This document shows, piece after piece, positions 5,657 to 34,196 of a stretch of DNA of 60,000 bases; position 1 is the stretch's first letter, and the number at the start of each line of letters is the position of its first letter. Position numbers and translations under genes: made by a program. The stretch is from Chrysophaeum taylorii. Its lineage: Eukaryota > Sar > Pelagophyceae > Pelagomonadales > Pelagomonadaceae. Under the pieces are notes generated by a model. The model worked only from the letters and a program-made list of their open reading frames with translations, did no database searches and was not told the origin of the DNA. The stretch is from the NCBI GenBank assembly GCA_029834535.1, contig JAQMWT010000061.1, forward strand, positions 1-60,000. The letters are read 5' to 3'.

Positions 5657-5658
5657 GG

Positions 5659-6687
5659 CTACCGTACGTTCCGGCGGCGGGCTTCGGAGATCTTAATCGT
5701 GCTCAAACGAGCGTAAACTCGAGTCTTGACCAGGTCGAGACTCTTGCGAAAGGCATCGTGTTGATGATTGTAAATCGGCACGGTTATCGGATCTCGATCG
5801 TAAATAGATCGAAAGGTTACGATTGGTGCATCGATTCGTTCATCCTCGAACTTAATCTTCTTGCGCTCGTATACGACTTGGGTTCGATAAAAACAGATCC
5901 GATCGTGGGGGTAGTCCAAGACGGCTCCTACAACTCGTATATCGCGCCCTCCCAACAGGAACAGATAGTTCGTATCGGCCACAATAGCGACAATGGGGGC
6001 AGCGATGTTGTCGGCGAGGGCGACCCGAATCGCGATCCAACGAAAGATCGTCGTCGTATTCAACCCTGATCCGTACAGCTTGCGCTTAATCGGAAGTTCG
6101 CCTTCATCGAAAATCAACTGATCTTTGGCCAACTTTCTGACCATTTCTCGGCAAATATAAGAAACATCTGCCATTCCATCGACACCGATGGTCGTCGAGA
6201 ATTTTGGTCCGTCACGATTCCTGTAGATGTGACAGGCCATAAACGTAAGAGTACCCGTATCTAAACAACGGAGGGTAACCAAATCATCTTCGATCGTCTT
6301 GCCGTCTCGCGGCGTCAACGAAGTGTGAGCACATCGGGCTCTGACTCGCTCATCTCCGGGGTTGGGCATCGATACCGCGGCTTGAGCTTTCGTATCATCT
6401 GTTGTTGGCGTCATCGACGTAACGCTCGCGGCAGCCTCTTTATCTGGCGGCTTCCGCTCTTCCTCCAAGACAATCTCGGAGGGAATCAGTGCTGGTAGGG
6501 GATCCTGGTCTTCGTAGTTCACGGAAGCAAAGGACCCCTCCCATAAATCATTCATTTCGTCTTTCCAGAATGCATCTGTAAATTCATTCGTCCTCGGTTG
6601 ATCATCACCATCATCGGCGATCGGTTCCGTGTCGGCTGCAGCTTCGAGTCCGTAGCTGAGCGGTTGTTCTGGTGGCTTCTTTAGCAA
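5659..6687 (-). CDS. Retropepsin-like protease region of g1
   Basis: Open frame of 342 codons. Residues around FSTTIGVDGMADVSYICREM correspond to a retropepsin flap/active-site strand, and IVAIVADTNYLFLLGGRD to the second half of such a fold (hydrophobic strand plus LLG-R-D). The g2 protein has the matching GLDGMADSPYIDHRLYRKL. The usual D-S/T-G-A-D is replaced by D-G-M-A-D, so catalysis by the standard mechanism needs testing. The frame starts 7 nt before the end of the preceding frame, so it was probably expressed by frameshift as part of Gag-Pol. Confidence 0.6.
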   Translation of the reverse strand: MLKKPPEQPLSYGLEAAADTEPIADDGDDQPRTNEFTDAFWKDEMNDLWEGSFASVNYEDQDPLPALIPSEIVLEEERKPPDKEAAASVTSMTPTTDDTKAQAAVSMPNPGDERVRARCAHTSLTPRDGKTIEDDLVTLRCLDTGTLTFMACHIYRNRDGPKFSTTIGVDGMADVSYICREMVRKLAKDQLIFDEGELPIKRKLYGSGLNTTTIFRWIAIRVALADNIAAPIVAIVADTNYLFLLGGRDIRVVGAVLDYPHDRICFYRTQVVYERKKIKFEDERIDAPIVTFRSIYDRDPITVPIYNHQHDAFRKSLDLVKTRVYARLSTIKISEARRRNVR

Positions 6688-8243
6688 GAAGTTCCGAGTT
6701 CTCGTCCACCAATCCTGCAGGTTCCACGTCGGCTCGTCTTCGTCCCACTTGAGAACGCTGCTAATCTTCTTCTTAAATCTATCCTTTTCTTCCGGCGTAT
6801 CCGAGGCTCGATCCGTAGTAACCGAACCGTTTCGGGGGGGTCCGCAGGAAAAGATGGCGTCGTCCCCGACGTCAACTCTATCGTAAGATCGTCGTCTGCA
6901 TCACTCGCGGTGGTCATCGTCTCGTCAGTCGAATGAGCGCACAAGCTATCACTGCAGAAATCCATGTCTGGCTCACAGCCAGTTCGGTCGCCAACGGTCG
7001 TCTCTGGAGGGTCCAAAGATAAGCCGATGGCATCGAGGGCCTCCTCGTCAAAAATAAACGGTGGGTCGTCCGTGGACGACTCGTCAAATAACGTTATCGC
7101 GGACACTGGTTCACAAGGTGTAGCTTCTTCATCTTCCGAATCTGAATCGCCTTCCCAGTATCGTGGAGCTTCGAGTTCATCGCTCGAATCTTCGAGTTCA
7201 TCGCTCGACATCTGCTCATAAATCTGTGCCAAAGACCGACGATTGGTCAGCACGTCGTTGGGTGGCTCGTCCATCGGCGGGCGAGCAAGATCTTCGAATG
7301 CGGCCGCGGCAAGGGCGTCGGCTGCGTCGTCGGTGCGGGTGTCCGTGTTCGGGTACACCATCACTCCTAATGGTAACTGTTGACCACAAGGGGTCGTAAA
7401 CGCGAGCGTTGCGCTCAAAAAACCCAAATTATATTGGTGTCGGCCTCCGTCGTATTCGTCGTCGCGCGATCGGCGTCGTCTGTGCCGGCGCGAACTTCGA
7501 CTGGGGCTCTTGTTATCTTTGTCTCTCTCTGGCGTCAGTTCGGCAGGTCCTATTACCTCTGGATCGTCCCTGTAGGCGACTGGTGCTCCCAAGCCTATCC
7601 GAACTGTCTCAATCGTCTCGTCTATCGAAACATCGACACATGCGTCGTCTTCTTGCCAAAACTCCGACCAAACGTAAATTAAATCTCCGTTGGCGAATAA
7701 CTCCATGCCTCGGGGTCGGAATCGCACTTCTTTCCGCTCTGGCGGTTTCTTCCTTAGGAAACAGTGAGCTCGTATCCATATCGTCGGTACGCTCATCTTC
7801 TTCTTATCCATGCTGATCGTCCCATCCAAATTCGATTCCGGGCGGCAGCTATACTCATCCCTCATAGTATGTTCGGGATCTTTCTTTATCACATAGCCAT
7901 CATCATATGCAGGCTGAAAATCTTTGAACTCTTCGTTCGTGAGTAACACGCCAGGGCTTTCACATAGCTCCAAAGGCAGTTCATGCGTTATAAGATTCTT
8001 CATCTCTTCCGCTTTCGTATTCATTGTCTCGGCCGTTTCACTCGGCCTATCATCCACTCCATCGCTTAGAATATCGGCAATCGCCTCGTCACTAAAAATG
8101 TCGGCACACGAAATGTCTGCCATCGTCAATGGGAATAAAACGTCTGCAAAAACGTCTGCAGTCGGTTCGTCGGGGGGGCCTGCAAAAGAAGAAGGCGTCG
8201 TCCCCGACGTCATATCTGTCAAAAAATGGCCACAAAAGGGCAC
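6681..8243 (-). CDS. Acidic 520-aa Gag-region protein of g1, function unknown
   Basis: Long open frame, strongly acidic, with Asp/Glu/Ser-rich runs (SSDELEDSSDELEAPRYWEG, DSDSEDEEA) and a basic Arg/Ser patch (SRSSRRHRRRRSRDDEYDG). The phrase SGTTPSF.A.PPE occurs twice, near residues 12-24 and 450-465, suggesting an internal duplication of about 1.3 kb or convergent linkers. Its place between the N-terminal Gag-like ORF and the protease makes it part of Gag/pre-protease. No zinc knuckle was found. Overlaps both neighbours by a few bases. Confidence 0.55.
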   Translation of the reverse strand: MPFCGHFLTDMTSGTTPSSFAGPPDEPTADVFADVLFPLTMADISCADIFSDEAIADILSDGVDDRPSETAETMNTKAEEMKNLITHELPLELCESPGVLLTNEEFKDFQPAYDDGYVIKKDPEHTMRDEYSCRPESNLDGTISMDKKKMSVPTIWIRAHCFLRKKPPERKEVRFRPRGMELFANGDLIYVWSEFWQEDDACVDVSIDETIETVRIGLGAPVAYRDDPEVIGPAELTPERDKDNKSPSRSSRRHRRRRSRDDEYDGGRHQYNLGFLSATLAFTTPCGQQLPLGVMVYPNTDTRTDDAADALAAAAFEDLARPPMDEPPNDVLTNRRSLAQIYEQMSSDELEDSSDELEAPRYWEGDSDSEDEEATPCEPVSAITLFDESSTDDPPFIFDEEALDAIGLSLDPPETTVGDRTGCEPDMDFCSDSLCAHSTDETMTTASDADDDLTIELTSGTTPSFPADPPETVRLLRIEPRIRRKKRIDLRRRLAAFSSGTKTSRRGTCRIGGRELGTSC

Positions 8244-10035: not shown

Positions 10036-10539
10036 GTTCCCTTGACTTTAGCACTTTTTGATTTAAGAAACGCTGTGTTATTCGCCGACTTGCGGTTGCG
10101 ATGGAGGACGGTGCCTCCTGAATCCTGAGCCTTGCGAGGGCATCCGCCCTCCCGGCGTAGGTTGGCACCTATTCGCCTCCCGGGCGGGCCGGTTGGCAGC
10201 CGGAACGTTCGCAGTGGGACGGGGTATGGCCGGGGGGCGAAGACGGAAGGTTATCGACGAGTTGGTTGTCAGCACATCGCGGTCTCCTCGTCGCATGGCG
10301 ACAAGCTTGATGGTCACTCTCCGCCGACCGACCTTTCGGCGCTCCTCGTCTACAGGCCCGTGATTCCGGACTGCCTCCTGTCGGTCCGGCCTGGCTCCCA
10401 TGCTCGGGAGAGGTCTGAAGTTAGTTAGTTAGTGTTATTCACACCGGCTGTCCTCGTTCTAGGAGACAGATTCGAGGGCAGACTATCACTGCTCTCTCGC
10501 TCTGCGGAAGGGTAGCGCAGTATAAACTACTGTTCTCTC
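10036..10539 (+). mobile_element. LTR family A fragment (element c5), split by a SINE
   Basis: AAACGCTGTG before and TTCACACCGGCTGTCCTCG after the SINE together match the LTR-A piece at 38043-38150 (AACGCTGTGTTTTTCACACCG). The downstream part (GAGGGCAGACTATCACTGCT, GAAGGGTAGCGCAGT, CTGTTCTCT) matches LTR A at 27727-27834. It is followed by a degenerate primer site, CGGTATTGGGCACCAG, equivalent to GGTTATGGGCCCAG elsewhere in the window. Confidence 0.7.
10084..10431 (+). mobile_element. SINE-like element, copy A, with 9-bp TSD
   Basis: A 348-bp unit flanked by the 9-bp duplication GTGTTATTC (10075-10083 and 10432-10440). It ends in GGTCTGAAG(TTAG)n. The same unit recurs at 35542-35905, 36647-37008 and 51524-51894 on the minus strand and at about 55146-55514 on the plus strand. 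Its last ~50 nt (GGCCTGGCTCCCATGCTCGG, GAGAGGTCTGAAG and GTTA repeats) are nearly the same as the end of the LINE at 19603-20000, so the LINE machinery probably moves it. It carries an open frame of about 98 codons (ending RPGSHARERSEVS) in several copies. I find no clear tRNA-type A/B boxes, so it may instead be a LINE deletion derivative. Confidence 0.85.
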
Positions 10540-13888: not shown

Positions 13889-13894
13889 CCCGCA

Positions 13895-14758
13895 GTGCAG
13901 CGGACCGCTCAGACCTCGGTGCGCCTGGAGGATCTGAGTACGGCTCTCAACACGATGAACGTAATTCGTCAGGCACAGCAGACGGCCCCGCCGGGTAGGG
14001 GGCAACAGTCTCAGAGAGCGAACCCTAGCCAGCACAATGATGGTGTCGCCGCTCAGTGGCTTGAAGTGCTTGGCGAAGATCAGAATGACACTAAGCGAGC
14101 GGACTACTGCACTGTGCAGTATTCTGAGCTCATGGAGGGCAACGTGTATGACGATGACGAGGTTGGGGGCGATGATGATAGCATCTCTGCAGGAGGCTAT
14201 TCCCCTGGTGACCCCATGGAACCTCCTTCCTTGTTGGTCATCACTGAAGATGCATGGGTGGAGGAGCAGGAACAAAGTACCGAAGTGACTGGAGTTGCAT
14301 CTAGAGTTCTTTCGGAAGACGAAGATAATCGTGACGAATTGGGGTATACGATTGTTCGTGTGGGACAAGATACCTTGGTTGCCATGGATATAGTGCCACC
14401 GAGGGACGACTGTGCCGAGCGTTATGTTGCTCACCCTTCCATCTCTTCGGATTTCGATAATTTCTGCCCTCAGACTGCGTTGAATATCACTCAGGATCCC
14501 GACCATCGTGAAAATAAAGCCGTAAGGTACGATGGCACGAGATCCGCCTCTTTGACGTATGTGCCTGTGGCTGTCTCCTCGCTAGATGGTTCGAAATATT
14601 CCATCATCGCTGCCGGTTTGGATGGCATGGCTGATTCCCCCTACATCGATCACCGCTTGTATCGCAAGCTTGATCGTGACGGCCAAATCATCTATCGTCA
14701 GCCACCCCCTACTATTCGTAATCTAAATGGAACAGGAGGTTCGGGAGCTGCTATCTAA
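13895..14758 (+). CDS. Protease region of g2
   Basis: Continues the Gag frame after the TAG at 13886. The C-terminal part has SIIAAGLDGMADSPYIDHRL, matching g1's VDGMADVSYI at the expected retropepsin active-site strand, then YRQPPPTIRNLNGTGG. The upstream half is acidic linker. The last 32 nt overlap the start of the DNMT frame (ATG at 14727), which lies in another frame, so DNMT expression would need a frameshift or internal start. Confidence 0.6.
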   Translation: MQRTAQTSVRLEDLSTALNTMNVIRQAQQTAPPGRGQQSQRANPSQHNDGVAAQWLEVLGEDQNDTKRADYCTVQYSELMEGNVYDDDEVGGDDDSISAGGYSPGDPMEPPSLLVITEDAWVEEQEQSTEVTGVASRVLSEDEDNRDELGYTIVRVGQDTLVAMDIVPPRDDCAERYVAHPSISSDFDNFCPQTALNITQDPDHRENKAVRYDGTRSASLTYVPVAVSSLDGSKYSIIAAGLDGMADSPYIDHRLYRKLDRDGQIIYRQPPPTIRNLNGTGGSGAAI

Positions 14759-15740
14759 GCACGGCTCCTTGGTTTGGATACCCATCACCTACACCTTTGT
14801 CGTCGTCTACTTTGCTGGCGCTGGAGGATCAACGTTGGGTATCCGGCGATGCAATGAGCTATATGGCAGTTCATTTCGCATTGTCCTAGCTTTGGATGCT
14901 TGTCCTCAAGCCCGAGCCACCTTTGAGCTCAATTTTCCGAAGATTCCCTATGTTTTGCATGAGTTGGGGGAATCTCATCGTCGTACATACGACATGGTGT
15001 TGTCGTACGTGCACTCAGATTTTTGGAAGCACTCTTATTTTCACGCCAATCCGCCGTGTATCTATGGATCGACTGCCAATTTGCACTACAGGGACGCACG
15101 CAAGGGCGCTACTATTACTTATTGGGTCCTGCGTCACTTCCGCAACGCACCTTATGTGATTGGACGATGGACGCTCGAGCAGGAACCATCAGTGATCCCT
15201 TTTGTGCATCACCAATTTTTATGTGCCGCGTATTGTTGATTTCTATAGTATCACGCCAGAGCTGCTGTACTCGCGCACGCGCCTACTTGCGTGCAATGTT
15301 CGCTTGAACCTGCCGTTATTATCGCGTGTACCACCGAATTTAAGGGACCGTTTTGGGCCAGCGTTGGGATTTACAGGTGGTCACCCGCTCATTATAGTGA
15401 ACAGTTTGTCATCTACGCGCCCGGTTATCGGCCCTGCCTTCACGGTGACGCGCAATAAGCTCGACATAGGACCTCATTTCTCGAACACCCGTCCACTCAC
15501 GTTGCAGATGCACCAGGAAATTATGACCGTCCCTGCTATGTGGCAATGGGGTGCGACAGTTTCCGAGACAGTAGCTATGAAGATGCTTGGCAGTATGGTG
15601 CCACCCGCGACTATGACGCGGATTGCGCTAGCAGTGCACAATTCGTTTGACCCTTCACTTCGAAATTTGGGTAAGTTGCGGAATATTGCGACGACTATGC
15701 TAGCCCAACCTGATCACCATATTCTACGGTTTTCACCTTT
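14727..15740 (+). pseudogene. C5-cytosine DNA methyltransferase domain of g2
   Basis: The best-preserved gypsy DNMT here. Frame 14727-15239: motif I VVVYFAGAGGSTLG (residues 25-38), motif II IVLALDAC with Asp57, motif IV HANPPCIYG with the catalytic Cys at residue 111 (codon at 15057), motif VI WTLEQEPS with Glu151. A frame change near 15220 leads to 15202 onwards: ELLYSRTRLLACNVRL (motif VIII), RPLTLQMHQEIMTVP (motif IX) and LGSMVPPATMTRIALAV (motif X). The order is that of bacterial and eukaryotic C5 enzymes; the recognition region between VIII and IX is about 70 residues, which is short. No extra reader domains are seen. One frameshift separates motif VI from VIII. Confidence 0.88.
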
Positions 15741-16199
15741 TGCTGTCGAGTCGCGCATTCCAACGCTCGACCCTGCCACTCGAAGTGTATCATGGGTTGC
15801 GCCCGATGAACTATATTCTCCTGCGAGTCCTGCACCATCAGCTGCTGCCCCCACCACCCCGGCACCACCTTCGGTTACATCGCCTGGGACGGCTTCATCT
15901 TTTGCAGGGGGCACCGTCGCCACTGCGGTTATGCAGAGCAACCAAGTTGATAATCAGCCCTCCGCAACTGCTGAAGAAGAAGGCACCGCGAAAGAGCGAC
16001 CAGCGTATTTTATTACGTACGACGTTCCGTGGGCGGACGCGCCTCACGACGAACATGGTCAACCTTCACTGGTGATGCCTCCTCATTTAGCGGATCAGGA
16101 GAGCATGCAGGTCATCCCTCCGACCGTCGCGCAGGTCGAAGAGGTGATGACTGAATTGGGTTTACAGAGCATCCTGCTTTATATGATGACGAGACGCTG
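15741..16199 (+). pseudogene. Linker between DNMT and RT of g2
   Basis: Same frame as the DNMT C-terminal part, ending TGA at 16198-16200. Pro/Ala-rich (PASPAPSAAAPTTPAPPSV), then YFITYDVPWADAPHDEHGQP, which matches the g1 linker. No domain recognised. Confidence 0.6.
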
Positions 16200-17070
16200 A
16201 TGATGAAGCATTTAATCTCGTATTCGTGGGCATTTTTCGATGATGTGATGAGACCTGTTGATTCACGTGAAGTGACGCTCCGGTTCAAAGAAGAGAACCC
16301 GATTCCCGTCAAACTCTCGCCATATCGGTTGTCGAAAGAAAAGATTGAATGTTTGCGGATGCAGATTGAAGCATGGACCCGAGACGGAGTTATTCGTCCT
16401 GCGAATTCTCCATGGGGTTTCCCTATTTTGATGTTGCCTAAGAAAGGTGCTGAGCCTGGCACTTCCAATGCTTACATAGCAGCTGTCGACCTACGGCGCC
16501 TCAATGCATTGCTAAAGGATGATAGCTGGCCGAGCGTGAGCATGGCTGACGCGTTGGTGTTTCTCATTGACAAGTTTTGTCGTTCCAGTTTGGATATTCG
16601 TTGGGGCTATCACAATTTACGATTGTCGCTAGATGCACAAGATGTGGTCACCTTCACTAGTCCGCTGGGAGCGTACAGCTACATGCGTCTACCTTTGGGA
16701 GTCAAACCAGCCGGAAGTTTGTTTTGCAAGCAGTTGAACACTGACTTGTCGCAATGGCTATATCGTGATCTTGTGGCATAAATCGACGATATTCTCGCCG
16801 GTCACGCAGATACAAAGAATCACTTGCAGTGCCTTGTGCAAGTTATTCCCCATATCGCCTTGAAGGGGTACAGCGCCAAGATCAAGAAGATTCATTTTAT
16901 GCAAGAAGTCATTGAGTTTTTGGGTCATTTATCTACCCCGAACGGACTTCTTCCATCACCAAGGTCTTTAGAAGCCATCAGACACATGCCAATTCCTGGC
17001 ACTTTGTCGGATGCTGACCCTAAGAAGCAAGTGAGATCTTTCCTTGGAATAGGGAGCTTTTGCCGGGAGA
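16200..17070 (+). pseudogene. Reverse transcriptase of g2, truncated
   Basis: Gypsy RT with MRPVDSREVTLRFKEENPIP, RPANSPWGFPILMLPKK, AAVDLRRLN, SLDIRWGYHNLRLS and MRLPLGVKPAG. The catalytic box reads LVA-stop-IDDILAG: a TAA at 16779-16781 replaces the aromatic residue that g1 has as Phe. Coding continues in frame to VRSFLGIGSFC near 17060, where sequence switches abruptly to copia element c1 in the opposite orientation. RNase H and integrase are missing. Confidence 0.9.
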
Positions 17071-18450
17071 AGGGAATGTCGGGTGAAGGTGCGGGAGGTG
17101 GATGTTGTTCATAATCAGGAGGAGATTTAGAAATAAGACGAGGAAAAGTCAGTTTATAGGAAACACGGACTTGACCGTTTTCAGGATGAAGGACAACATC
17201 GGCTAAATGATTAACATGGGGTGTTATTAAAGGGCTTATAACGCTAGCACCGCATAAGTAGATGTAGGGACGACATCGGGGTTCATATTTACGAAATTCG
17301 TTAGGTTCCAAATGCAAGTAACGAACAGAACCAAAAGGTTTGAGGTAGTCTTGTTGGGGAACATTACATTGGTCTAACAAAACTTGTTGGGGGCTTAGGA
17401 CTTTATTGTAAATACGTTCGAGGGAAACGTTAGGGTGGTGATTATACGATTGGATAGCATGTATAACAGCCCACGGGTAGTGTGGTGCCGGATCTGTTAG
17501 GGGGTGGAATTTATAGGATACATTAAGCATATGCCTGAGTCGTGTAGACGCGGCAGTGGCTATGTGACCAACAGTGGCTTCGACTTCATGATTAAAGACA
17601 TGTAAGTAAGGGGGGGACGCGGACATATTAATACCATGTTCCACACGGAAGGGGGTTGTAACATGCTGAGATAAATAGGGTTTAAAGGAACCACAATAAA
17701 TTTGTTTTAGTTGTACATGAACATAAGTAGAGCAAAAATTACGAACAAACTCAAGGGCGTTGCAAAATTCGCTGGAGTTAGTGCTACGACAAAAGTACAC
17801 TAACGGAAATTTAGAAATGCGACACTTGAAAAAAATGATATGTCGAAAGGATCCCGATTCCGAGAGCACAGATACGTAACCACCGTCACATGCCCAGGCT
17901 TCACCAGGTTGAAAAACTTTTTCGAATGATGGTTGCTTGATAAGGCGGTGTGGATGAGAAAAGCGCTTTTTATGAATCATACAATCCACACACAACTTAC
18001 GGTAGGGTACGTCAGATGGGTGGTGTCCAGGACTGGCAATGACCTGAACAGCCTTAATGGCTTGAGAATCACTGGAATGGTGAATGTTGCGAAAATAGGT
18101 AGCTCGTTGTTGCGCATCTCGAAATGCGAGGGTGCCCCTGGCATGGACATTCTTATCGAAGGGCGCATGCTTCTCATGGAGCTGTCTTGGCGTTACAAGG
18201 GGTATTTGTTTTTCTTTAGTAGGAGATGATATATCTGCGGATGAGATGTTAGAGAGGAAAGCATGGGCTGCTGAATCAATATGAAAAGAAGGAAGTTCGT
18301 GGTTAGAAGGGATAGTATCACAACATAAGAGTTTTTTATTGGAGATGTAGAACATAGTAATGGAACTCTGGTGTAATGTTAAGGATGTATCTGTTGGGAA
18401 TATATTTGTGAAGAAGGTTGACCTATAGTTTTTGGTTAGAGGAGCGTGAT
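17071..18450 (-). pseudogene. Integrase of copia element c1
   Basis: Open over the whole domain. Zinc-binding N-terminus (RNIHHSSDS ... KLCVDC), catalytic core with WACDGGYVSVLSESGSFRHI (first Asp), and a diverged centre and Glu region (VFNHEVEATVGHIATAA). The copia C-terminal block follows (FGSVRYLHLEPNEFRKYEPR, then YIYLCG, equivalent to the FG...P...R..IFLGY block), then VVLHPENGQVRVSYKLTF. It runs directly out of the DNMT domain. The frame crosses the junction with g2 at about 17070 and continues as meaningless antisense. RT and RNase H are missing. Confidence 0.85.
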
Positions 18451-18509
18451 CAGGGTCAAACGATGGTGATAGTGTTAATATACGCAAGTCATAGACAAGC
18501 TGACACAAA

Positions 18510-20647
18510 TGTTTATAAGTTGTATGATATGTTCCAGCTGGAATAGCATTTGCGATGATATCACAGCATAGGTCAGGGGACAAAGACAAAAGAAAATTGA
18601 TACGCTGTGAAGTTATTGGCCCGTGCTGGAGGTATAGCCGTCCAGTGGATGCCAATTCGCGAGTTGAGTAGTGTCGAATGCTATCGAGTCGTGGATCGTA
18701 CACCAGCATATTAGCAAATCCACGAATGGTAGGAGTGGGAGTGTATATAGAGTGAACTTTGGCAGCCATCTTCCAATCGCTTGATGTTATAAAGCCCAAT
18801 TATCTGCTTTGGGACAAATGCATGTCCCTTAAAGCAAATATTTTGTCGATAAATTCGAGACGATTTTCCTGAGGGTAGAAGACAAAAGAATCGTGAAATA
18901 CAGGAGAGGTATAGGAAACCAGTGCTTGTACTAGACGACGCGTGTCTTGATTTTCATTATTATTATGGTATGCTTGGCAAAGCCAAAGAAAACCGGCAAC
19001 TGGTTCGAGAGAAGCAGTCTTATCGATTCCGGCATCGTGTGTTAAAAGGGCGTAGGTTTCGCCAGAAGCATTTATGTGTGTTTGGTATTTAGAAGAGGAG
19101 TTAGAAACTGTTATGTCTCCGCCCGTATGTCTTCCACCAGTGATGTAAATGATAGATGAAGTAGAGGATTTATTTAGGAATAACCTATGAGATGGTTGGT
19201 TATATTCGATCGTTGTAATACGAATGGACACAGGTAATGTGATGGATTTAGGGAATAATCGTCCCATAATATTATAGAGGAGCACAAAAGCTTTGAGTTC
19301 AATAGGGGATCTCATGCAAGCAAGTGGTTTTCTTGAATTAGTCAAGAATCCCAGGCGAAAGTTAGAAATGCCCTCCATTTTATCTTGACTGGGATGTTCG
19401 ACTGTTTTGTTTGAGTGTAGACGAAGAAAAAACATGGCTAAAGTTTCGAGTTCAGTAACTGATAAGCGAACGGATCCTGTGCGACTGAAGCTATTATAAG
19501 TTTTGGGTGTAGACACGAATGGCATGTCAGGAAAGACCTGCGTCCAAGGTTCGTCGACTATTAGCTTGCGACTGATGGAGTTAGCGTGATCTGCAATATC
19601 CACATCTCAACGGAGATCCTGCTGCGGCGCCTCGACCTCGAGTCCATCGACGTCTACGTCACGCGCCGCCAGCTCCGCTGGGCCGGTCACGTCGCCCGCA
19701 TGCCCTTCTCCCGACTCCCTCGCAAGATGCTCTCGTCTTGGGTCCGCTCCAAGCGCCCACCGGGGGCTCCGCAGATGACGTACGGGAGGTCGCTCGCCAA
19801 GGCACACCGGAAATGCGACATCCCCTTCAACTCGTGGCACGACCTCGCACAAGACCGCGCGCAGTGGCGGTCCGCCATCCACGCCCTTTCATCCCTCGCC
19901 TCTACCCCAACTGTGTGATTTTTGCTCTGTGATCCTGGACCGGCTACTGCCGGCCCAGCCTGGCTCCCATGCCCGGGAGAGGTCCGAAGTTAGTTAGTTA
20001 GCAATATCCAGAAAGGAAGTGACTCGTTTATTAGGCCATGAAAGCAGATCAAGAGAGCCGGTGTTATATTTGCGTGCGACGAGGATCCATCTTTATCTGG
20101 CTTGATAATCTCCTCATAAATAGCATGGAAATCGGTCACATATGTCCACCGTATAGTGCATCGTTGAGAAGATGAGATTAGCAACTCGTATATGATCTTC
20201 ATACGATGCGGAGTGTGGTGGAGTCATTTCCATGAAGAGAACAAGCGGCTCTAAAAGCTCAAGTACAATTAGAGCACTTGGAAACGAGGAATCGTCCATA
20301 TCACGCTCGAAGGTGGAAATGGATCTCCCATTGATTATGTTGCGATTTGTGCATGGTGATGTCAATTCCACGATATCGGTGTAATATCGTGCACGTTCAA
20401 CGTCCGATGCTCGATGGAGGTATGTCGGAAACTTAGGTAGGGATGGGGAAACTTCGATGGAATTACCAAAACGTATTCGTAGCATGTGCGTGATATTGTC
20501 GTCGCTCTCAACAAGAACTTTAACGTTGATGTTGATTTGCAAGTCATTAGAAGCGCAAGCCAAGAATGCAGGAGTGGACATCCCAGAGCAAAGTAAAGTT
20601 ACTGTAGGTATTCGTGGGCTAGGAGATGAAGTTACTGTATGGAGCAA
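18510..20647 (-). pseudogene. C5-cytosine DNA methyltransferase domain of copia element c1, split by a LINE
   Basis: Frame 20647-20114: motif I TVTLLCSGMSTPAFLA, motif II VLVESDD, motif IV DIVELTSPC with the Pro-Cys, motif VI LVLFMEMTPPH. Motif VIII would fall near 20110, where a stop and frame change occur. VARKYNTGSLDLLSWPNK then reads into the LINE at 20000 and resumes at 19602 (DIADHANSISRKLIVDEPWT). The long target-recognition region runs to 18800; a TAA at 18800-18802 replaces a residue that is Tyr in c2. Then come PTIRGFANML, RHYSTRELASTG (motif IX-like) and DIIANAIPAGTYHTTYKHL (motif X). Total without the LINE is about 580 codons, a normal single-domain size. It lies between protease and integrase. 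Confidence 0.85.
19603..20000 (+). mobile_element. 5'-truncated LINE with 10-bp TSD
   Basis: Flanked by GCAATATCCA at 19593-19602 and 20001-20010. Encodes the C-terminal end of a non-LTR reverse transcriptase protein on the plus strand: RRQLRWAGHVARMPFSRLPR, then RSLAKAHRKC and WHDLAQDRAQWRSAI, a well-known tail of these proteins. The 3' end is CCCGGGAGAGGTCCGAAG followed by TTAGTTAGTTA. Insertion interrupts the DNMT of c1 in the antisense direction. The 3' end is shared with the SINE copies. Confidence 0.93.
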
Positions 20648-20751
20648 ACGTGTTGTAACCTTGCGTCATACGGGAGGTGGGAAATGCTTGCGTATGTAAG
20701 GCAGCTGCGAATGCATTGACTCCAGGATGGTTTTAAGCCATGGGACGTAAA

Positions 20752-21480
20752 TTACTCGTTCCATGAGGGTGGAATATAGTTTGAGCATTTCGCGTTGTTC
20801 ATTAAAAGCACATAGTCTGAACTGTAGTGAGCGAAGTTCCATCTACGCGCTTTTGCTTGTTGTAGCGAGTAAATTGGTAGAGTTGGCAACAGGTTGCTGA
20901 GTCTAAACAATGTAATCTTGACATTATAATCAATTTTACTCTGGATAGATGATTGTCCTTTAAATTCAACTCCACAAAGGTGTATACCAAGTTTATCTTC
21001 TCCCCATTGAGTCATACTGATGATGTGCAGATCGGGATCGTTATGGTCGTTTTGCTTGGGTAGAAAAAGCGCAACGTCTAGCTTTACATATCCCACATTT
21101 GGATGCTTTGGGAGAGCGGGTATGACGGTCCTTATAATCATAGCATGTGTGATTCTCTGCGTATCCGTAGCAGTCTGGATAGCAGGTGACAAGGACTCGG
21201 GTAGCTTTACGATGTGGATAGGATCAGCATAACGTTTAAAGTTAATTACATGTTGAGAAGCACATGTGTCAGCATATCCTGGCGTAGTCATTAGCGGCAA
21301 ATTGTACTCGTTGTACAGTTTAAGCATTGTTGCATAACAGGCATGTGTTGAGCTTTGACCAAACACGTACTGTGTCATGAAACTTTGCGTTTGTTCGGAA
21401 GGCACAACGACGAGTGTAAAACCAGTATTTAATTTTGGTAGCAACACAGGGGGGATCTGTACCATCTTCATTATCTTCAT
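20752..21480 (-). CDS. Protease region of copia element c1
   Basis: Open frame of 242 codons. GYADTCASQHVINFKRY matches the copia protease active site (normally D-S-G-A/C-S/T) with Cys in place of Gly; c3 has LDSCASISLMTTF at the same place. Then VQTATDTQRITHAMI-like strands (hydrophobic flap region), LPKHPNVGYVKLDVALFLP and LHIISM. It precedes the DNMT frame with about 100 nt between, and the last third is linker. Confidence 0.65.
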   Translation of the reverse strand: MKIMKMVQIPPVLLPKLNTGFTLVVVPSEQTQSFMTQYVFGQSSTHACYATMLKLYNEYNLPLMTTPGYADTCASQHVINFKRYADPIHIVKLPESLSPAIQTATDTQRITHAMIIRTVIPALPKHPNVGYVKLDVALFLPKQNDHNDPDLHIISMTQWGEDKLGIHLCGVEFKGQSSIQSKIDYNVKITLFRLSNLLPTLPIYSLQQAKARRWNFAHYSSDYVLLMNNAKCSNYIPPSWNE

Positions 21481-22221
21481 TGGTTAAATTACTGGGGAGC
21501 TCAGAGTGCGAGGAAGTTTCCCGAGCTTGACGACGAACGATAGCATTCTGAGCTTTAGCATTTATGTGCTGCAATAGCGGCGGAGGGATGTTATCGATTT
21601 TATCATCTTTAATGGACAGGGAAGTGTGGAACATTTTCTCTGTATCAGCAGTCCCCCTCTGCTCCGCATCACTGGGGGACGCTTCAGGAGTAGATGTTTC
21701 AGTTTGATACTTTTCTTCTGAAACAAGAGATTCCTTATCGGCTTCTACGAGGTTCGAAATGGTATTGGACATAGTATCAACTCGAGATAAGTAGAGATGA
21801 ACTTGGGTGGCTTCATCAGGATCTAAGGACTGTGTCGAAGCTTGAGAAGCGGTTGTCCAGAGGGTACTCAATAAGCTTTTCATTTCCTCCTGTACCATTT
21901 TAGAGTCGGTGGAAGGATTGGGATTTGCTTCCTGTAATTTACCAGACAGGTGGCGAAGACGATCAACTTGATAAGTAGCCCGGTCCACAAGAGACATATT
22001 AGAGCGTGCATTGCGGTTAGAGGAAGATGAGTAGACAGGACGATCGAAGCTGGTACCTTTGACGTTATAATTTGAGGGTGAACGATAGTACGACGTGACA
22101 CGGGGTGAATTTGTCGATGCTTTATCTTTTGCATTACGAAGCCAGACTGTCCAGCTACAGCGGCTAACAACGAGTAAGCGTTGTTTAGAGAGTCGTGGGA
22201 TTGATGAATAGTATCCATCAA
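21320..22221 (-). pseudogene. Second Gag part of c1, coiled-coil protein
   Basis: Two overlapping frames (22221-21880 and 21997-21320). The second, MSLVDRATYQVDRLRHLSGK, has heptad-like helices (LHLYLSRVDTMSNTISNLVE-like region at about 21800) and an acidic linker before the protease. It follows the first Gag ORF after a stop at 22237 and probably was one protein with it. No zinc knuckle found. Confidence 0.5.
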
Positions 22222-22236
22222 TAATACCTTAGGTGG

Positions 22237-23154
22237 CTAGGTAGCGGTAGTACCAGGGATGTAAGGGATCCAGGAAGCGGGTTTATCCAAGCGTCGGTTA
22301 GAAGAAAACTTTGTCTCATTATATATCTTTAACAAGAATTCCAATAGTGGACGAACGTCGTTAGGATCAACTAGCTTTAACAATTCGGGATCGTGACTCG
22401 AGTTGTTACTAGAGCGTGTCTCGTAGAGTTTACACCATTCCAATAAAGATTGAGAGTAGCGCTCGTGATCCGAGGGATTAGCATATAGACGGTAGATCTC
22501 CTCGTGAGCTTTAAGAATGATTATGGAGTTATTAAATTGGATTGATGCTTCATCATTATTTAATTGCTTTGCCTGAGATTGAAAGGCAAGGAGTTGTTCG
22601 ACAAATACATGGGCATACCAATTAACATTTAGAGACGTTCGATTAAACTGAGATTTAAGCTCAGTTACATCTGTACAAGACACTATCTCATAGTAATGAT
22701 AGGCTAAAAGCATTACAGCACGTAATTTATTGGGATGGGCAGTAATTGCATAAATTTTCTTTAGTTGAGGCCACATAGCGAGAGCGGGCTTTTCCTGTGA
22801 CTCCAAATTAAAGAATGTGTACAAGAAACCAGCATAAGTTTCGCAGTGTTTGATCCAATCGGCATTAGAGAGACCTGTAAAGGATATGTTAGTTAAAGAT
22901 GAATCATACACAATTGATTTAGGGAATCGGGTATCTAATAAAGTGAGGACACGTTTGACATCCTTATTTAATTCAGGACGAACAAGGTTATACGACTCTT
23001 GGTAGTAAAGTCGTTCAAGATTATTACGGGCATCAACTGTTAGTTGATGGGAAGAGTTGACGTGCCAAGTCTTTAAATGTTCGGGCAGGGCATCTTCATT
23101 AATGCAGATGTAATTCGTTAATTTTCTCGGATATCCATCTTGAAAAGATGGCAT
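22237..23154 (-). CDS. Gag N-terminal ORF of copia element c1
   Basis: 305 codons from ATG at 23154, about 535 nt after the primer site. Mostly helical, with ADWIKHCETYAGFLYTFFNL, WPQLKKIYAITAHPN and YSQSLLEWCKLYETR, in keeping with a capsid protein. No named Gag domain can be assigned with certainty; position is the main evidence. Confidence 0.6.
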   Translation of the reverse strand: MPSFQDGYPRKLTNYICINEDALPEHLKTWHVNSSHQLTVDARNNLERLYYQESYNLVRPELNKDVKRVLTLLDTRFPKSIVYDSSLTNISFTGLSNADWIKHCETYAGFLYTFFNLESQEKPALAMWPQLKKIYAITAHPNKLRAVMLLAYHYYEIVSCTDVTELKSQFNRTSLNVNWYAHVFVEQLLAFQSQAKQLNNDEASIQFNNSIIILKAHEEIYRLYANPSDHERYSQSLLEWCKLYETRSSNNSSHDPELLKLVDPNDVRPLLEFLLKIYNETKFSSNRRLDKPASWIPYIPGTTAT

Positions 23155-27353: not shown

Positions 27354-27834
27354 ATCACGGAACACCCACGACTTAATGCATGCGCCTCTCGACTTTAACT
27401 ATGGCACTGTTACACTCGCTTATTCTTCACGATATTGTCACTACATCCTTCTTTCATCGTCCCTCGCTCTCACACTTACCTGCCACTCCGCTCTATTCTA
27501 TCTTTCTCCTGCACTTCGCACACTTCTTATTCCACGCCTCCTCCCAACTCAACGTCTAGTTGTCTCTGGCCAGACATTTGATTTGTTTGTTCCAGATTTC
27601 GCTCATCACTGGAGTTCAATCTTCGAGGGCGTAGAGATACAAAATTCCTAGAGATAGAAAATTCCATTTCGGGTTAGGAACCCCCCCCCTTAACCTCACA
27701 CTCACACTAAACAACCCCAAATCGCTGTGTCGAACACCGTGCTGCTCTTTGTGTCGTTAGAGGACAGGACGAAAGGCAGCACTACCACTGCCACCATTCT
27801 CTACCAGAGGCACAGTGATTTTTACTGTTCTCTA
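27354..27834 (+). mobile_element. 5' LTR of element c4 (LTR family A)
   Basis: Direct repeat of about 35906-36345. Shared blocks include CTCAACGTCTA, GTCTCTGGCCAGACATTTG, CGAGGGCGTAGAGATA, CCTTAACCTCACACTCACAC and GCTGTGTCGAACACCGTGCT. Ends in CTGTTCTCTA next to the primer site. The outer start is not sharply defined; similarity fades before about 27400. Confidence 0.8.
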
Positions 27835-27848
27835 GGTTATGGGCCCAG
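27835..27848 (+). other. Primer-binding site of c4, half-tRNA(iMet) type
   Basis: GGTTATGGGCCCAG, an exact complement to the anticodon arm of initiator tRNA-Met, placed directly after the LTR. Identical to the site at 52417-52430. Confidence 0.85.
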
Positions 27849-28056
27849 TCCGGTACTGGTAGAGAAACGTCCTCCGAAAGACATCGATCTCGATCGACGT
27901 CTCGGACAAAGACTCAGGATTTCCAGGCAAGAGCAATCTCCTGAAGTTCCTGCAAGTTTTAAGACCGTAGTCGAGTCTCATCGCTTGCTACTGGTGAACA
28001 AGTGTGAACAAAGTGTGAAAGGCAAACAACAACGCGCAGAACGCAACCCGAAAACG

Positions 28057-30309
28057 ATGGCGACTCACGACCCACAAGTCCCGAGTCTGGAAGTAGCGAC
28101 GCAATTCGCGACACTACAAGCTCCCATGCCACAGTTCAAAGCCGATTTCGTTGATAAGTTCGCCGCTGATTGCCAACGGCGCAAAGCTAATTTCTTTGAT
28201 CAACTCGCCGCGGATCAAGCTATTCTCAAAGCCAGAATCGCCGCTGATTACGCTGATATCAGAGCCAGAATCACTGCCGCGATCGAAGCTCGAGACGAGC
28301 AACTTGATCAAGACGTGCACCTCGATCAAGACGAGCAGCTTGAACAAGCTCCCCAACCAGCTGTTCATACGGCAACTCCCCTCGAGCGAAAGCAAACTTC
28401 GCACGAAGTCGCGACCCGAGACCCGATCATCTCGATGGTCACCCCCCCTCATGCCGACAACCCCTCCGGATATCAAACACCCCACGGCAAAGTCTCAGAC
28501 CCCACTGCCTTCCCTCCGGACCCAGGCATAGCCAAGGTTACTCCACAACCTGGCACACCCCACATTCACGAGGACACTCCACCTTGTTCGAATATCGCAC
28601 AAGCAATGTTGAACACTCCACCACCACCACCACTAAACATTACTCCCTTCACTCCACCAACCCCACCGGAGCCTCCACCTCCTTCACTGGAGCCTAACTC
28701 CCCACTATCGGCGACTCCCGCTACACCATCCATTCAAGTTCCCCAACATCCTCGTCAACCCCCTCGCCGCACCACTCATCTCCTTGATGATCATGCCACC
28801 TACGGCCATGACGGCCCCGGCACCGTCATCTCTCACCAAGCCCCCACCGCGGCTCAAGCTCCTGCCGCCCCACAGTCGGATTCCCTTGTCCGATATCCAT
28901 CATCTTCCGCAAGTCGCTCTCCTCCGGACTTTCCTCTCCATCCACAAGACCATGCCACCTACGGCCACGACGGCCCCGGCACTTCCATTTCTACCACAGC
29001 TCCTTCCGCGGCTCAAGCTCCTGCCGCCCAACCATCGGACCCTCCTGACAGACCTTCATCACCTTTCGAAAGTCGCTGTTCCCCCGATTTGCATCTTCAC
29101 CCACGTGACTACGCATTCCACGACTACGACCATTCCTCCGTCTCCACCCAAGCAAAAACCCACCTCCTTTCTCAAAGTTCCAATGCACCTCCGTCTACTC
29201 CGTCTGCGCTCCAACGCGAGTTGGCCACCACTAAGGCTGCATTCCGCTCCCAAACCGCTGACTTGGCCGCAACCAAGGCCACGCTCATTCGCAAGGACAA
29301 TGCTTTGTCCTCCACAGCCAACAAACTCACCATCACCGACGCCGCCCTGGCTTTCGCCACTGCCCAGCTCGCCATCCAAGCCGACGAACTGGTCTCCACC
29401 CACGCTGAACTCCATCTCACCCACACCCAGCTCAAGGCACTCGAAACTGCCCACGCTGACATCCGCAACTCCCACTTTGAAACCAACGCCGTCCTCCAAA
29501 CCATTCTTACCTCCTTGGATACCATCAACCCCACCAAAGATGCTCCATCGCATCTTTTACCTCCTTTCCCCATAAACAACCAACCTTCCTTCCTTCCGAA
29601 CCAACCTCCAATGCCTCTCCCCCGATTCTCCCCGATTATCATCACCACCTCCACGGATGCCCCGGACCTGGTTCTCCTGGTTCACCACCCACTCCGTCTC
29701 TCTGTTCTCAACCCCCCCCCGCCATATCTGGCCCCTCTTCCTCTGCCAAATCACTCTTCGCCTCTCTGGCATCCCCTGAACCCCTTTGCACCCGCTCGCC
29801 TTATCAGCCACCTGGTTCATCCCAACTCGACCACATCCCCGCGTCCGAGTTGCGAGGGCGTACATTCAACACCGGCGACCGTACCCCTACCACCAGCGAC
29901 GATCACCACGTACAAAGTCCCACCAAGAAACAAGACCACCAACATCAAGAGTCGACAAGATCCGAATTATCAAAAGACAGCTTTTTCCCTGATGGTCATG
30001 CTCACCATCATGCTGCCAAGACATGCACAAGGGCTTCTTCTCTCTTCGGGCACAACGGCCCAGGAAGCAGTCTTGTCGAAGGAACACCAAGCCACCTCGT
30101 TCCCACTTTCGACAAGTCAAAGAACAAGACACCTCGAGATGTTCCCGAGTATTATGCCTACATCGACTATGGCAACCACACCCAAGAACCTAAGGCACCG
30201 CCGTATTCTATGCCCCAGGCACAAGAGCCGCAGGCCACTGACAACATCCCCTCGGATTGAGCCCCCTGGTATGATGCATACAGCAAAGAAGCAAGACCCA
30301 CTTCACTAG
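28057..30309 (+). CDS. Large Gag-like ORF of c4
   Basis: About 750 codons from ATG at 28057 (the frame is open further upstream into the LTR, but this ATG is the first after the leader). N-terminus: helical repeats (FVDKFAADCQRRKANFFDQL, then AADYADIRARITAAIEARDE). Middle: Pro/Thr/Ser-rich disorder with two 53-residue repeats (HATYGHDGPGT). Then a long coiled coil (LQRELATTKAAFRSQTADLA and following). The end is again Pro-rich. No zinc knuckle, protease or RT. It could be a structural Gag of a non-autonomous element; the biased base composition (C-rich plus strand) also lengthens frames by chance. Confidence 0.55.
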   Translation: MATHDPQVPSLEVATQFATLQAPMPQFKADFVDKFAADCQRRKANFFDQLAADQAILKARIAADYADIRARITAAIEARDEQLDQDVHLDQDEQLEQAPQPAVHTATPLERKQTSHEVATRDPIISMVTPPHADNPSGYQTPHGKVSDPTAFPPDPGIAKVTPQPGTPHIHEDTPPCSNIAQAMLNTPPPPPLNITPFTPPTPPEPPPPSLEPNSPLSATPATPSIQVPQHPRQPPRRTTHLLDDHATYGHDGPGTVISHQAPTAAQAPAAPQSDSLVRYPSSSASRSPPDFPLHPQDHATYGHDGPGTSISTTAPSAAQAPAAQPSDPPDRPSSPFESRCSPDLHLHPRDYAFHDYDHSSVSTQAKTHLLSQSSNAPPSTPSALQRELATTKAAFRSQTADLAATKATLIRKDNALSSTANKLTITDAALAFATAQLAIQADELVSTHAELHLTHTQLKALETAHADIRNSHFETNAVLQTILTSLDTINPTKDAPSHLLPPFPINNQPSFLPNQPPMPLPRFSPIIITTSTDAPDLVLLVHHPLRLSVLNPPPPYLAPLPLPNHSSPLWHPLNPFAPARLISHLVHPNSTTSPRPSCEGVHSTPATVPLPPATITTYKVPPRNKTTNIKSRQDPNYQKTAFSLMVMLTIMLPRHAQGLLLSSGTTAQEAVLSKEHQATSFPLSTSQRTRHLEMFPSIMPTSTMATTPKNLRHRRILCPRHKSRRPLTTSPRIEPPGMMHTAKKQDPLH
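28792..29109 (+). repeat. Two 159-bp tandem repeats inside the c4 ORF
   Basis: Units start at 28792 and 28951 with CATGCCACCTACGGCCA and run 159 bp (53 codons), followed by a decayed third start (YAFHDYDHSSVST). Length is a multiple of three, so the frame is kept. Confidence 0.8.
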
Positions 30310-30393
30310 CCTCGAATATGGTCTCGGATTCAGCCCCCTGGTAAGATGCATGCAGCAAAGAAGCAAGACCCACTTCACCAGCCTCGAAGATGG
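30252..30393 (+). repeat. 71-bp tandem duplication
   Basis: CTCGGATTGAGCCCCCTGG at 30252 and CTCGGATTCAGCCCCCTGG at 30323 begin two nearly identical 71-bp units (AGCAAAGAAGCAAGACCCAC in both). The first unit contains the stop region of the preceding ORF; 71 is not a multiple of three. Confidence 0.85.
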
Positions 30394-30559
30394 TCTCCTC
30401 GACCATTCAAGATCAGCCGCCTGATCCAAGCACCATCAATGACGCTGCAATGCCGTATCCACAAGGACAAGACACGCTGTCAACGGTCCCACGTCAACAT
30501 ACTCGCAGGCACTCGCCGCACCTGCAGGTATCAGCTCAGGTTCACCAGGCACTCCCGCC

Positions 30560-31851
30560 TTGTTCGATATCTCTCGATCAGCAGCGCCCGATCACTTTGA
30601 AGCTGGTTCCGCCTCGCCGCCTTCTCTCCCCGAAGACAGGCGCGCACTGCCGTTCACCGGCGCTTGCTGCTGCACCCACCATCCACCTTCTCGGCCGGAT
30701 GCACGGGATGACACTGCTCAGCAGGTTGCATGGACCCATCTGCGACCACCATGTGTCTTCGCACGAGCACCAGTCGCAGCACCTGATCACCCGTTCCCCA
30801 ACTTTCAGTCAGATGACGCAATCCTTTCGGTTGCCGATCCTCATGTCTCACCGCGACCAAGCTTCTGGAAAGCTATCCCCATGGCCGCAGTAACAGACAC
30901 TGATTTCGAGAGTTCTGAACGACCCGATCAGCCGCAAACTATGCACGATTCTATTGCGACCACTTCGGTCCTGTATGTCCCCTTGCATAGCTCTCTTCTG
31001 GACGCCACACGCTTGCTCTGCCTCCGGAAAATCGATGTTGCGCTCTCAGGAAACATTCTCCGCGCACTATGCACAGACTCGCTCCAACTGAACCACTTCT
31101 GTAAGCATTTTCGCATCACTGGAATGTACGACAACGTTCCACGCCAGCTGCCGGCTCCACCACGAACATGCCCCCAAGTCACGTACGTTGCCTCCCTCAA
31201 AAGCGTCTTACCGCTCAGCACGTCACTCCTCATTTGAGCACGCATGTCACATGCCCGCACCTTCGAATGCTCTACACGCCTAAGGGCAACCCTGGTCACT
31301 ACGGCACTCACTGCTCTGGTCCCAGTATCTCCGCTATTGAGGATGCACCCAGCAGGACTGACCCTTACATCGCCCTTGGTTCTACTGCACTCTCCTTCGG
31401 CGACCCCTCTTTTCGAATTCCCGCACTGGACCCCAAGCATTCCAGGCCGGATACTCTCCACCACGGGATCTCAGCTCACGCGCACATCTGCTCTACCTCG
31501 CAGACAGGTCAGCCGCGAGCCACACACCTTTTTGCACTGACTTCAGACCACCCGCATCACGCGCATTTGCTCTTGGAGCATGACACGCTTTTCGATGCTC
31601 TCCGCGTCACCGCCTCAAACACCACGACACTCGTCATTTCCACCGACACTCCACGCCGCAACGTATCTCACGACCTTCAGATCACCAACATAAGTCGCTC
31701 GCGCCCGCACCTCGTCGCGCACGCCTTACGAGGGCGTATTTCAATTGGTGACCTCGCAGGTCTTTCGATGCATTTTCCGACGTCCGACTTTGAACTTGCG
31801 AGTTACTTTACGGCAATCCCCAATGCCAAGACGTTTGAAGCTGCGCAATAA
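30560..31851 (+). pseudogene. Two overlapping ORFs of c4, function unknown
   Basis: Frames 30560-31237 and 31168-31851 overlap by 70 nt. Protein is rich in His, Ser, Pro and Thr with no domain recognised. The second ends with ALRGRISIGDLAGL and FELASYFTAIPNAKTFEAA, where the LRGR phrase also occurs in two other c4 frames. They may be pieces of one decayed polyprotein. Confidence 0.35.
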
Positions 31852-31971
31852 TGTCGCTGGAACTCCAAAGCCACAGAAACTGCCAGACAAGAAGGCACTC
31901 AACTCTCAACAGCTGCTCAAGAGCTACTTATAGTCTCGCACGTAGCAACGAGTACTATCTCGCAGTCTCCA

Positions 31972-34196
31972 TTGGACGACAAGACGAAAGATAAGACCAC
32001 AACGGCCAGCTACACCAGCCAGCTCATTGTTGTAGCAGACGAGACAACGCAAACCAACTGCACAGCACGGTTCCAGACTATGCAGACGATGCTCAGGTCC
32101 AACGATCAATTACTCGACCACGCACACGTTCTGTCACCTGACCTTGCAGTGCTACTGGCTCCTGTCTCATTCATAGCTGATGCACTCCATCCGATGGACC
32201 AATCCCTAAGATATGTCCCGCTCGCAGAAGCACCACCACAGGACACAAAGGTACATCATGAAGACACAGGTAAGCGCACCACGATCACGCGCACAAGCTC
32301 ATTGCGCCTATCCGATCACGACGAGACGAAGCTACAGCTTTGCTTGTTCCCTTCGCCTCTGGAAGACAAAGGCCGCCTTTCAGCCTCCCAGGCACCTGAC
32401 CCTCCCCTGTCGCTGCAATCCGTATTAGCACAGACGATCTCGCCTCCCTGCACGACTGCAGATCAGGCACAAACCAATGTCAGCACTCTGCAGAGTTATG
32501 CGCACCCGCTGAATTCTTACCAGCACGGCCACCTCAGCCAGTCAGGTCACTGCACCACCTCGGTCTCCCCTGACACCAGGTCGACGCATCGCTCATTCGC
32601 GATCACCTCGAGTCATATATTGGACGACTATGATCTCGAGCATATGAACTCATCGCAACGCTTGAGTCATACCCATGAAGGAATCCTACTTTGGAGTCAC
32701 CTCAACCACCCCCACAGGAACTTTGGCCACCAGACGCCACCCATGTGCTCGTGGTTTCTCCATTGGTTTCCTCAAAAGCTTTTGACTGCAGCAGAGACAA
32801 AATGCAACCTTCCCATGCGACTATAACCGCATTCTCGTTTGGGACACAAGCATTTACTTCATGCCATTCGTTTACGCCCATAGTACCGCGACACACGGCA
32901 ACCAAGATAGAAGTGGACTGCGTTCCACCCTCATCTCAGAGCGCTACCCCCGACATGCTGCACCCGGCACTGTTAGCCAGTCCCACCACGTCGGATACAG
33001 CTCCCATCGCTTTGTATAACGTCATATGTCATATTCCGATTACAGCTCAGACACCGCACAGGCTCCTATGCACTCGCGACGGCACGCTCACCGCCCCTCT
33101 CGGTTTAGACTACAAACATTGCGCCATACCCATGGTACACTCACAGTCAACTGAGACGCACGCTCGCTTGTCGCACAGTACGATGCCCGAGCACCTTTTG
33201 ATTCAAGACACGCAGAACACTGTCGTCTCCGCCACCGCTGAAGCGCCTCCTCCGACCGCCGCCCGGCTCTGCGCTCGTTTCGCAATCATGGTCTCTACGT
33301 CTCACCGGCAATTCGAAGACTTCACCCAGTTCGAATTACGAGGGCGCATTAGTTTTCCACCGACGACAAGATTCGTTTCGATTCGTATCAGTCGTGCCTC
33401 CTATGGCTACTCTGGCTACATCGGAACTCAATTCAAGGCACGTACCGAAGTCCTACTTTCCAAGGACCTCTGTCACACGCCAAGACCTGATGAGTATTCG
33501 TCCTTCCTCCCCGCTTCAACGCGACTCCCGACGACGAAATCCCCGACGATTTTTGATGACACTAAGTTTCGTCATCAATGCAATTCAGAGCCACCCGCGC
33601 TCTTCCATCAGTCTCTTGCAGGTCACACCTATCACGTTTCAGCTCACTCGATTTTATCCTGCATGCTGTCATATGCAAACGAAGTTCTGTCACGCCACAG
33701 CCACACGTCGCAGTTATCGCCAGTCTCGCGCAATAAATGCCCGCCACCACATGATAGCCGCACGCAGAGTCCTTTGCTCACTCTCTTCACGTCCCTCCCA
33801 GCACAATGCTTGACGTTGAAGCTCTGCACCACTATGGTTCGGTTACAACACAACTTCACGCGAAATCCTCGTACAGTTCTGATCATATCTCGCATCTGTC
33901 GACATTGCTATCAGAATCATGCTTCGGACACAGCTCAGACTGTACTAGCGTATTACGCTCCTATGACGCACTCGGTTCGCTCCTCCCCGTTCGCACTGCA
34001 GGTTCCATCTTGCAGCACTCTGAGCCCAACAGCTGCCAGTGCGATTCGCACCCAGTCGACGCTTCCCGTAACACCCGCGAGGATAAGCCCCAATCTCCAC
34101 AGGTTGGACACGCGCGCTGCTCTCAGCATTCCACCAAATGTCACTGCCGTACACCGCAAGCCCCACCCAGTTGTGTTACGAATCAAGGGAAGTTAA
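31972..34196 (+). pseudogene. Further long ORFs of c4, function unknown
   Basis: Frames 31972-32826 (284 codons) and 32691-34196 (501 codons) overlap by 136 nt. Composition is again Ser/Thr/His/Pro-rich. FTQFELRGRISFPPTTRFVS in the second repeats the LRGR phrase. No RT, protease or integrase motif is visible in any plus frame. The plus strand is C-rich and G-poor, which suppresses stop codons, so open length alone is weak evidence. Confidence 0.35.

Follow-up and report, generated by a model that had tools for sequence, protein, structure and literature searches.

Ty1/copia elements of Chrysophaeum taylorii with a predicted C5-cytosine methyltransferase between protease and integrase

The window analysed here, a 60,000-nucleotide stretch of Chrysophaeum taylorii DNA (contig C61, positions 1-60000), contains three fragments of Ty1/copia retrotransposons, c1, c2 and c3, in which a C5-cytosine-methyltransferase domain sits between protease and integrase. 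A first-pass annotation had proposed this arrangement, and the Ty1/copia class, the position of the domain and the enzyme family all hold in less decayed copies (L009, L042) found in this assembly, whose 70.8 Mb in 697 contigs are the subject of the genome searches. Open frames display this domain order, the predicted homology to C5-methyltransferases includes retained catalytic Cys and Glu residues, and there are well over 100 matches in the genome. We consider it probable that pol of these elements reads protease, C5-methyltransferase, integrase, reverse transcriptase (RT) and, presumably, RNase H, and we infer that the enzyme would methylate the element's own cDNA, that the copia elements acquired it in a single capture and that gypsy elements acquired theirs separately. 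The analysis covers motifs, surroundings, relatives within the assembly, selection, mutation traces and the literature.

The L009 copy consists of a gag-like open reading frame (ORF, 578 aa) followed by a single 1952-aa pol frame, in which a DGGAS protease motif (at 82), the methyltransferase motifs (310 to 822), integrase and RT succeed one another. The methyltransferase matches DNA_methylase (PF00145) with 32.1 bits (E = 1.1e-7; curated cut-off 22 bits) and the RT matches RVT_2 with 133 bits (residues 1686-1933, E = 1.6e-38); the rve match to the integrase (1016-1110) is weak, at 17.2 bits against a cut-off of 32.6. In L042 a c1-type methyltransferase, the integrase and the start of the RT share a single 1464-aa frame (rve 16.4 bits, then the RVT_2 start at 16.5 bits). 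The integrase thus lies upstream of an RVT_2 reverse transcriptase within a single pol in both copies, as in Ty1/copia. Pfam returned no gag match for the L009 gag-like ORF and no RNase H match in the scanned copia proteins. Direct repeat pairs 8.6-9.6 kb apart are present in 11 of 20 L009-type loci, several loci being cut at the region edge, and the long terminal repeat (LTR) ends inspected in L021, L022, L024 and L026 measure 81-200 bp with 88.3-96.5% identity; target-site repeats were not recognised.

Besides two ordinary-looking genes on contigs C634 and C621, at least 55 places in the genome exceed the PF00145 cut-off (at least 57 in all, with 123 of 474 candidates scored). The 20 of these that were fetched around long frames all match a single copia-type domain, the L009 type, and nine of the 20, compared with L009 by alignment, show 86-96% identity. 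The c1-type domain has at least 150 matches including c1 itself (150 of 849 candidates scored) and the c3 domain at least 150 including c3 itself (of 756 candidates). For 66 of the best 150 of 1670 RVT_2 candidates, a listed methyltransferase match lies on the same strand 3.3-6.4 kb upstream; the c3 list supplies 43 of these, the c1 list 23 and the at least 55 PF00145 places none. None of the 150 has such a match downstream. The 66 are a lower bound that says nothing about absence of the domain from the remaining 84. A 392-aa relative of the c1-type domain in an MMETSP transcriptome (P0001, 41% identity) indicates, at the level of sequence, that the family extends beyond this assembly.

Comparison of the L009-type profile (A1) with M.HhaI places the motif IV Cys on C81 and the motif VI Glu on E119 (match E = 0.11), which we take to be the catalytic residues of that enzyme. 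PCQ and ENV are invariant across 10 aligned L009-type copies, and Cys 88 and Glu 129 of the c1 type align with L009 residues 87 and 127, motif VI being altered in the c1 type. The supposition that the motif IV and VI residues are the catalytic ones is borne out by alignment for the L009 type; structure predictions for window pieces had low confidence (pLDDT 29.3 for 20117-20665 on the minus strand and 31.7 for 14727-15236 on the plus strand) and were rejected as proof. The L009 domain also matches the phage C5-methyltransferase family PHROG_116 (for example Caudoviricetes sp. vir335; E = 3e-6 over 38%, 25% identity), the phage record search returning two records of one phage for L009 and one record for the gypsy-type copy L043. 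Single-protein searches of the PDB gave no match for L009, one for a gypsy domain (a cytosine methyltransferase, E = 0.031) and 27 for P0001, mostly designed ankyrin proteins with one cytosine methyltransferase at E = 0.49. Database searches retrieved none of 6311 candidates for L009 pol 1-900 at E 0.001, none of 7998 for the gypsy copy L041 at E 1 and one of 5247 for L034; viral contigs searched with A1 and L043, and genome contigs searched with A1, yielded no relatives. The ordinary-looking genes (L001 and L002; PF00145 4e-19 and 8e-18) are presumably DNMT2-like and DNMT5-like, judging from their motifs. L002 carries only weak RING matches in addition, and both lie in GC-rich stretches (61-63% GC versus 52% in the window), so that more than one organism may be represented in the assembly.

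In the window, c1 occupies the minus strand: its gag-like ORFs start at 23154, protease, methyltransferase and integrase follow, and near 17.1 kb the element is truncated against the plus-strand gypsy A. The motifs that the first-pass annotation named for c1 are all found there, collinear and on the minus strand: motif I (20564-20605), motif II (20495-20524), motif IV (TDIVELTSPCT, 20348-20380), motif VI (LVLFMEMTPP, 20216-20245), motif IX (18641-18667) and motif X (DIIANAIPAGTY, 18527-18562). The gag-like ORFs (22237-23154 and 21320-22228, together 21320-23154) are assigned by position only, and Pfam gave no gag match for the former, the latter lying outside that scan. The protease segment (20752-21483) resembles that of c3 (E = 7.5e-22), has no Pfam match in the scan of window pieces and contains YADTCASQHV (21247-21276), which we take to be a protease-like motif. 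Stops and frame changes split the c1 domain over three ORFs, which were compared with a c1-type profile built from six genome copies: the N-terminal half with motifs I, II, IV and VI (20117-20665, E = 2e-116), the target-recognition region (18803-19606, E = 8e-177, profile positions 202-468) and a segment with motifs IX-X (18527-18667), integrase (AWACDGGY, 17876-17899) and an SH3-like region (16928-18799, E = 9e-43). The last ORF shows integrase similarity at E = 5e-12 and an SH3_retrovirus match below cut-off (E = 0.0034). The domain is further interrupted by a 398-bp plus-strand insert (19603-20000) between 10-bp repeats read from the sequence (19593-19602 and 20001-20010); this is presumably the 3' fragment of a long interspersed nuclear element (LINE), and a related fragment occurs in locus L005.

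The other two fragments also retain what had been claimed for them. On the minus strand, c2 keeps the C-terminal third of the domain (44953-45717, c1-type profile E = 3e-64; motif X at 44992-45027), 45% identical to L042, followed within 41545-44466 by integrase (43378-44466, by similarity to c1 and L009) and RT (41545-42486, RVT_2 E = 1.9e-36). On the plus strand, c3 (55819-57806, profile E = 3e-50 and 1e-9) comprises a protease (55819-56724) and a methyltransferase 48-54% identical to L042, with motifs I (56782-56826), II (56864-56890), VI (57276-57305) and VIII (YQSRERLICIARR, 57414-57452); frame changes spread the protease and motifs I to VIII over several frames, and the frame of motif IV ends upstream of the Cys. 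Remnants of the L009 type occur inside a decayed plus-strand LTR element (27469-36338; LTRs 27469-27834 and 35994-36338, an 88% pair found by repeat comparison) at about 32254-32673 (profile E = 2.8e-5), and in isolation on the minus strand at 39831-40254 (regions of motifs IV and VIII; lowest tblastn E = 2.6e-6, profile E = 0.005). The decayed element also contains a very long gag-like ORF (27694-30309).

Among the copies that were compared, the domain is under purifying selection. For the L009 type, the ratio of nonsynonymous to synonymous substitution rates (dN/dS, Nei-Gojobori) is 0.123 over motifs I-VIII (16 of 20 copies, 120 pairs), 0.185 in the target region (13 copies) and 0.225 over motifs IX-X (17 copies), with 0.110 for protease (10 copies), 0.088 for integrase (9 copies) and 0.115 for RT (6 of 14). 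Constraint on motifs I-VIII is about that on the replication enzymes and is somewhat weaker over the remainder of the domain. Copies that contained stops or gaps, or were only partly covered, were left out; the sample favours well-kept copies. The c1 type gives 0.022 over motifs I-VIII, the segment by which its loci were picked, and 0.085 (IX-X, 20 pairs) and 0.091 (target region, 3 pairs) over the fairer segments. The sequences look as if selection keeps the methyltransferase working.

Two gypsy elements in the window likewise have a C5-methyltransferase, situated between protease and RT. Gypsy A (13889-17111, plus strand) encodes a protease (14609-14650), methyltransferase (14727-15650) and Ty3-type RT (16155-16778), its matches all falling below cut-off (PF00145 18.4 and 15.7 bits, RVT_1 15.5 bits). 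Gypsy B (1049-6900, minus strand) encodes a protease (6154-6192), methyltransferase (4211-5231), an RT assigned by similarity to gypsy A (3143-3649) and a segment that we take from its motif to be integrase-like (1049-1636); its ORF 4815-5231 exceeds the PF00145 cut-off of 22 with 22.3 bits and its ORF 4211-4681 matches no family. Gypsy-type genome copies, L040 and L043 among those scanned, reach 31.7 and 33 bits, and the gypsy domain has at least 151 matches including the query (of 698 candidates), some elements being matched in two pieces. No pairwise similarity links the gypsy domain to the copia one (global Z -0.1), which says little because L001 and L002, used as a control, do not resemble each other in this test either. 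When profiles of the three families and of the two ordinary genes were compared with one another, the best probability was 1.09%; the comparison had no power, since L001 and L002 miss each other (0.17%) and each profile is nearly a single sequence.

In the mechanism that we favour, the protease would free the methyltransferase from the polyprotein, and the freed domain would travel within the particle and transfer methyl groups from S-adenosylmethionine to cytosines of the element's new cDNA before integration, RNA being a less likely substrate; the methylated copy would thereby better survive in the cell. The c1 and L009 types would descend from one capture, and the gypsy elements would have captured their domain separately. 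Two sets of results qualify this account. The DNA_methylase match anticipated by the first-pass annotation appears in the L009-type sister family and fails for the c1 type taken alone (none of four domain copies, two of them partial, tested singly as found and not as a consensus), and none came from the c1 pieces or the scanned c2 and c3 pieces (c3 ORF 56474-57238 left out). This absence, which would favour reading the motifs as chance look-alikes in a weakly constrained pol spacer, is overcome at the sequence level by homology to the L009 type, PHROG_116 and P0001, which places the c1 type among C5-methyltransferases. Sister copies with curated matches, the collinear order of the motifs, shuffle tests and dN/dS near 0.1 also speak against it; a chance origin is scarcely credible, and it was rejected on the dN/dS values, the homology between c1 and L009 types and the upstream-downstream asymmetry around the best RVT_2 matches (66 of 150 against 0 of 150).

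The second set concerns mutation. With their flanks included, the element loci have CpG observed/expected ratios of 0.88-1.10 and show neither CpG depletion nor a CpG-specific C-to-T excess, so that lasting CpG self-methylation is unsupported. C-to-T differences between copies amount to 0.067 (CG), 0.060 (CHG) and 0.068 (CHH) in the L009 type and to 0.025, 0.019 and 0.026 in the c1 type. Finer sequence contexts have no C-to-T excess common to the families; ACG is raised in the L009 type (0.083 versus 0.033-0.046 for other ACN) and not in the c1 type. According to the available text of de Mendoza et al. (PMC5890265), CpG depletion, taken as a sign of self-methylation, is found in SymbioLINE and not in SymbioDIRS, whose enzymes are nevertheless active in yeast. 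The missing scar is compatible with activity on this precedent, and the simplest support for self-methylation is gone. The same lack of CpG decay, together with the altered motif VI of the c1 type and the inclusion in the superfamily of RNA enzymes such as DNMT2 (PMC12344493, in the part available), would suit a domain kept without durable DNA methylation, acting on RNA (element RNA or primer tRNA) or as a nucleic-acid-binding part of the polyprotein. We regard this as rather unlikely, given that the L009 type keeps PCQ and ENV invariant and in register with M.HhaI, and that non-CpG or cDNA-only DNA methylation would likewise leave no CpG scar. Less likely still is an enzyme acting mainly in trans on the host genome, dampening host defence or forming part of the host methylome; retroelement copies outnumber the two ordinary-looking genes among the at least 57 PF00145 matches listed, and an effect on the methylome has been proposed for the Symbiodinium enzymes (PMC5890265, available text), but the CpG observed/expected ratio, 1.05 for the window and 1.26-1.46 for the genes on C634 and C621, gives no sign of a CpG-methylated genome.

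Other features were noted in passing. Five copies of a roughly 355-bp repeat, 95-99% identical and lying in both orientations (10082-10433, 35537-35885, 36646-37008, 51526-51889 and 55151-55514), may represent a solo LTR or a miniature inverted-repeat transposable element. A second repeat of up to about 900 bp (84-95% identity; 37072-37985, 48890-49736, 49948-50861, 53269-54086 and 54148-55053) has several copies, some of which contain a roughly 200-aa ORF. The minus strand has a Mutator-like transposase ORF (57795-59339; PF10551 E = 0.0011, below cut-off) and, by eye, a DDE transposase-like stretch (45972-48900). Elsewhere in the assembly, C696 is a mitochondrial-type contig with small-subunit rRNA, a permuted mitochondrial 5S rRNA (RF02547) and, by eye, rps11 and rpl2; its cox1 (L045, L046) gives three separate matches spread across 14 kb, and intron-type reverse-transcriptase ORFs can be seen by eye in between. 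A permuted 5S rRNA of this kind is a pointer to stramenopiles, to which the host probably belongs.

Cytosine methylation is a host weapon against transposons, and cells often silence such elements by it. Element-borne methyltransferases have so far come from few lineages and element classes, and a well-kept copia case beside a gypsy case in one genome provides a fresh replicate of the capture. What a retrotransposon gains from its own DNA methyltransferase becomes a directly testable question, sharpened by the absent mutational trace of simple CpG self-silencing. There is about an even chance that copia and gypsy elements, two unrelated LTR superfamilies, of one protist genome each captured a C5-methyltransferase, placed it directly after the protease and hold it under RT-like constraint, with retroelements as by far the main carriers of cytosine methyltransferases in that genome; if so, the two captures would suggest that methylation of their nucleic acid benefits retroelements in general, in some way other than CpG silencing.

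Phage C5-methyltransferases of PHROG_116 belong to the same enzyme superfamily, but are free-standing genes with 25% identity and no retroelement. Retrotransposon DNA methyltransferases (DNMTs) are already established for elements of the LINE, DIRS and Gypsy classes, SymbioLINE, SymbioDIRS and KnitGypsy being the earlier element-borne cases in the available text of PMC5890265, which also reports abundant Symbiodinium Copia elements without any DNMT domain. A 2025 study (PMC12344493, Mol Biol Evol) says that some DNMT3 genes sit within 'LTR Copia and DIRS' elements; in the part available it credits the 2018 paper, which reports Gypsy, and gives no copia element structure, so that the mention may be either an error or a case given without detail. 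The available parts of PMC9998398, PMC6338049, PMC12477816 and PMC3145265 describe no copia element of this kind, and the copia setting appears new. SymbioDIRS-Dnmt3 and SymbioLINE-Dnmt of Symbiodinium (PMC5890265, as far as available) resemble the present elements as high-copy retrotransposon DNMTs, the DIRS enzymes having methylated CpG in yeast, but belong to the DIRS and LINE classes. KnitGypsy-Dnmt3 of Klebsormidium nitens, in the same available text, likewise combines an LTR retrotransposon, a C5-methyltransferase in pol, several copies and purifying selection; it is a gypsy element of a charophyte host with an enzyme of the Dnmt3 clade. The elements described here belong to copia, carry the domain between protease and integrase, and are joined by a gypsy family in the same genome.
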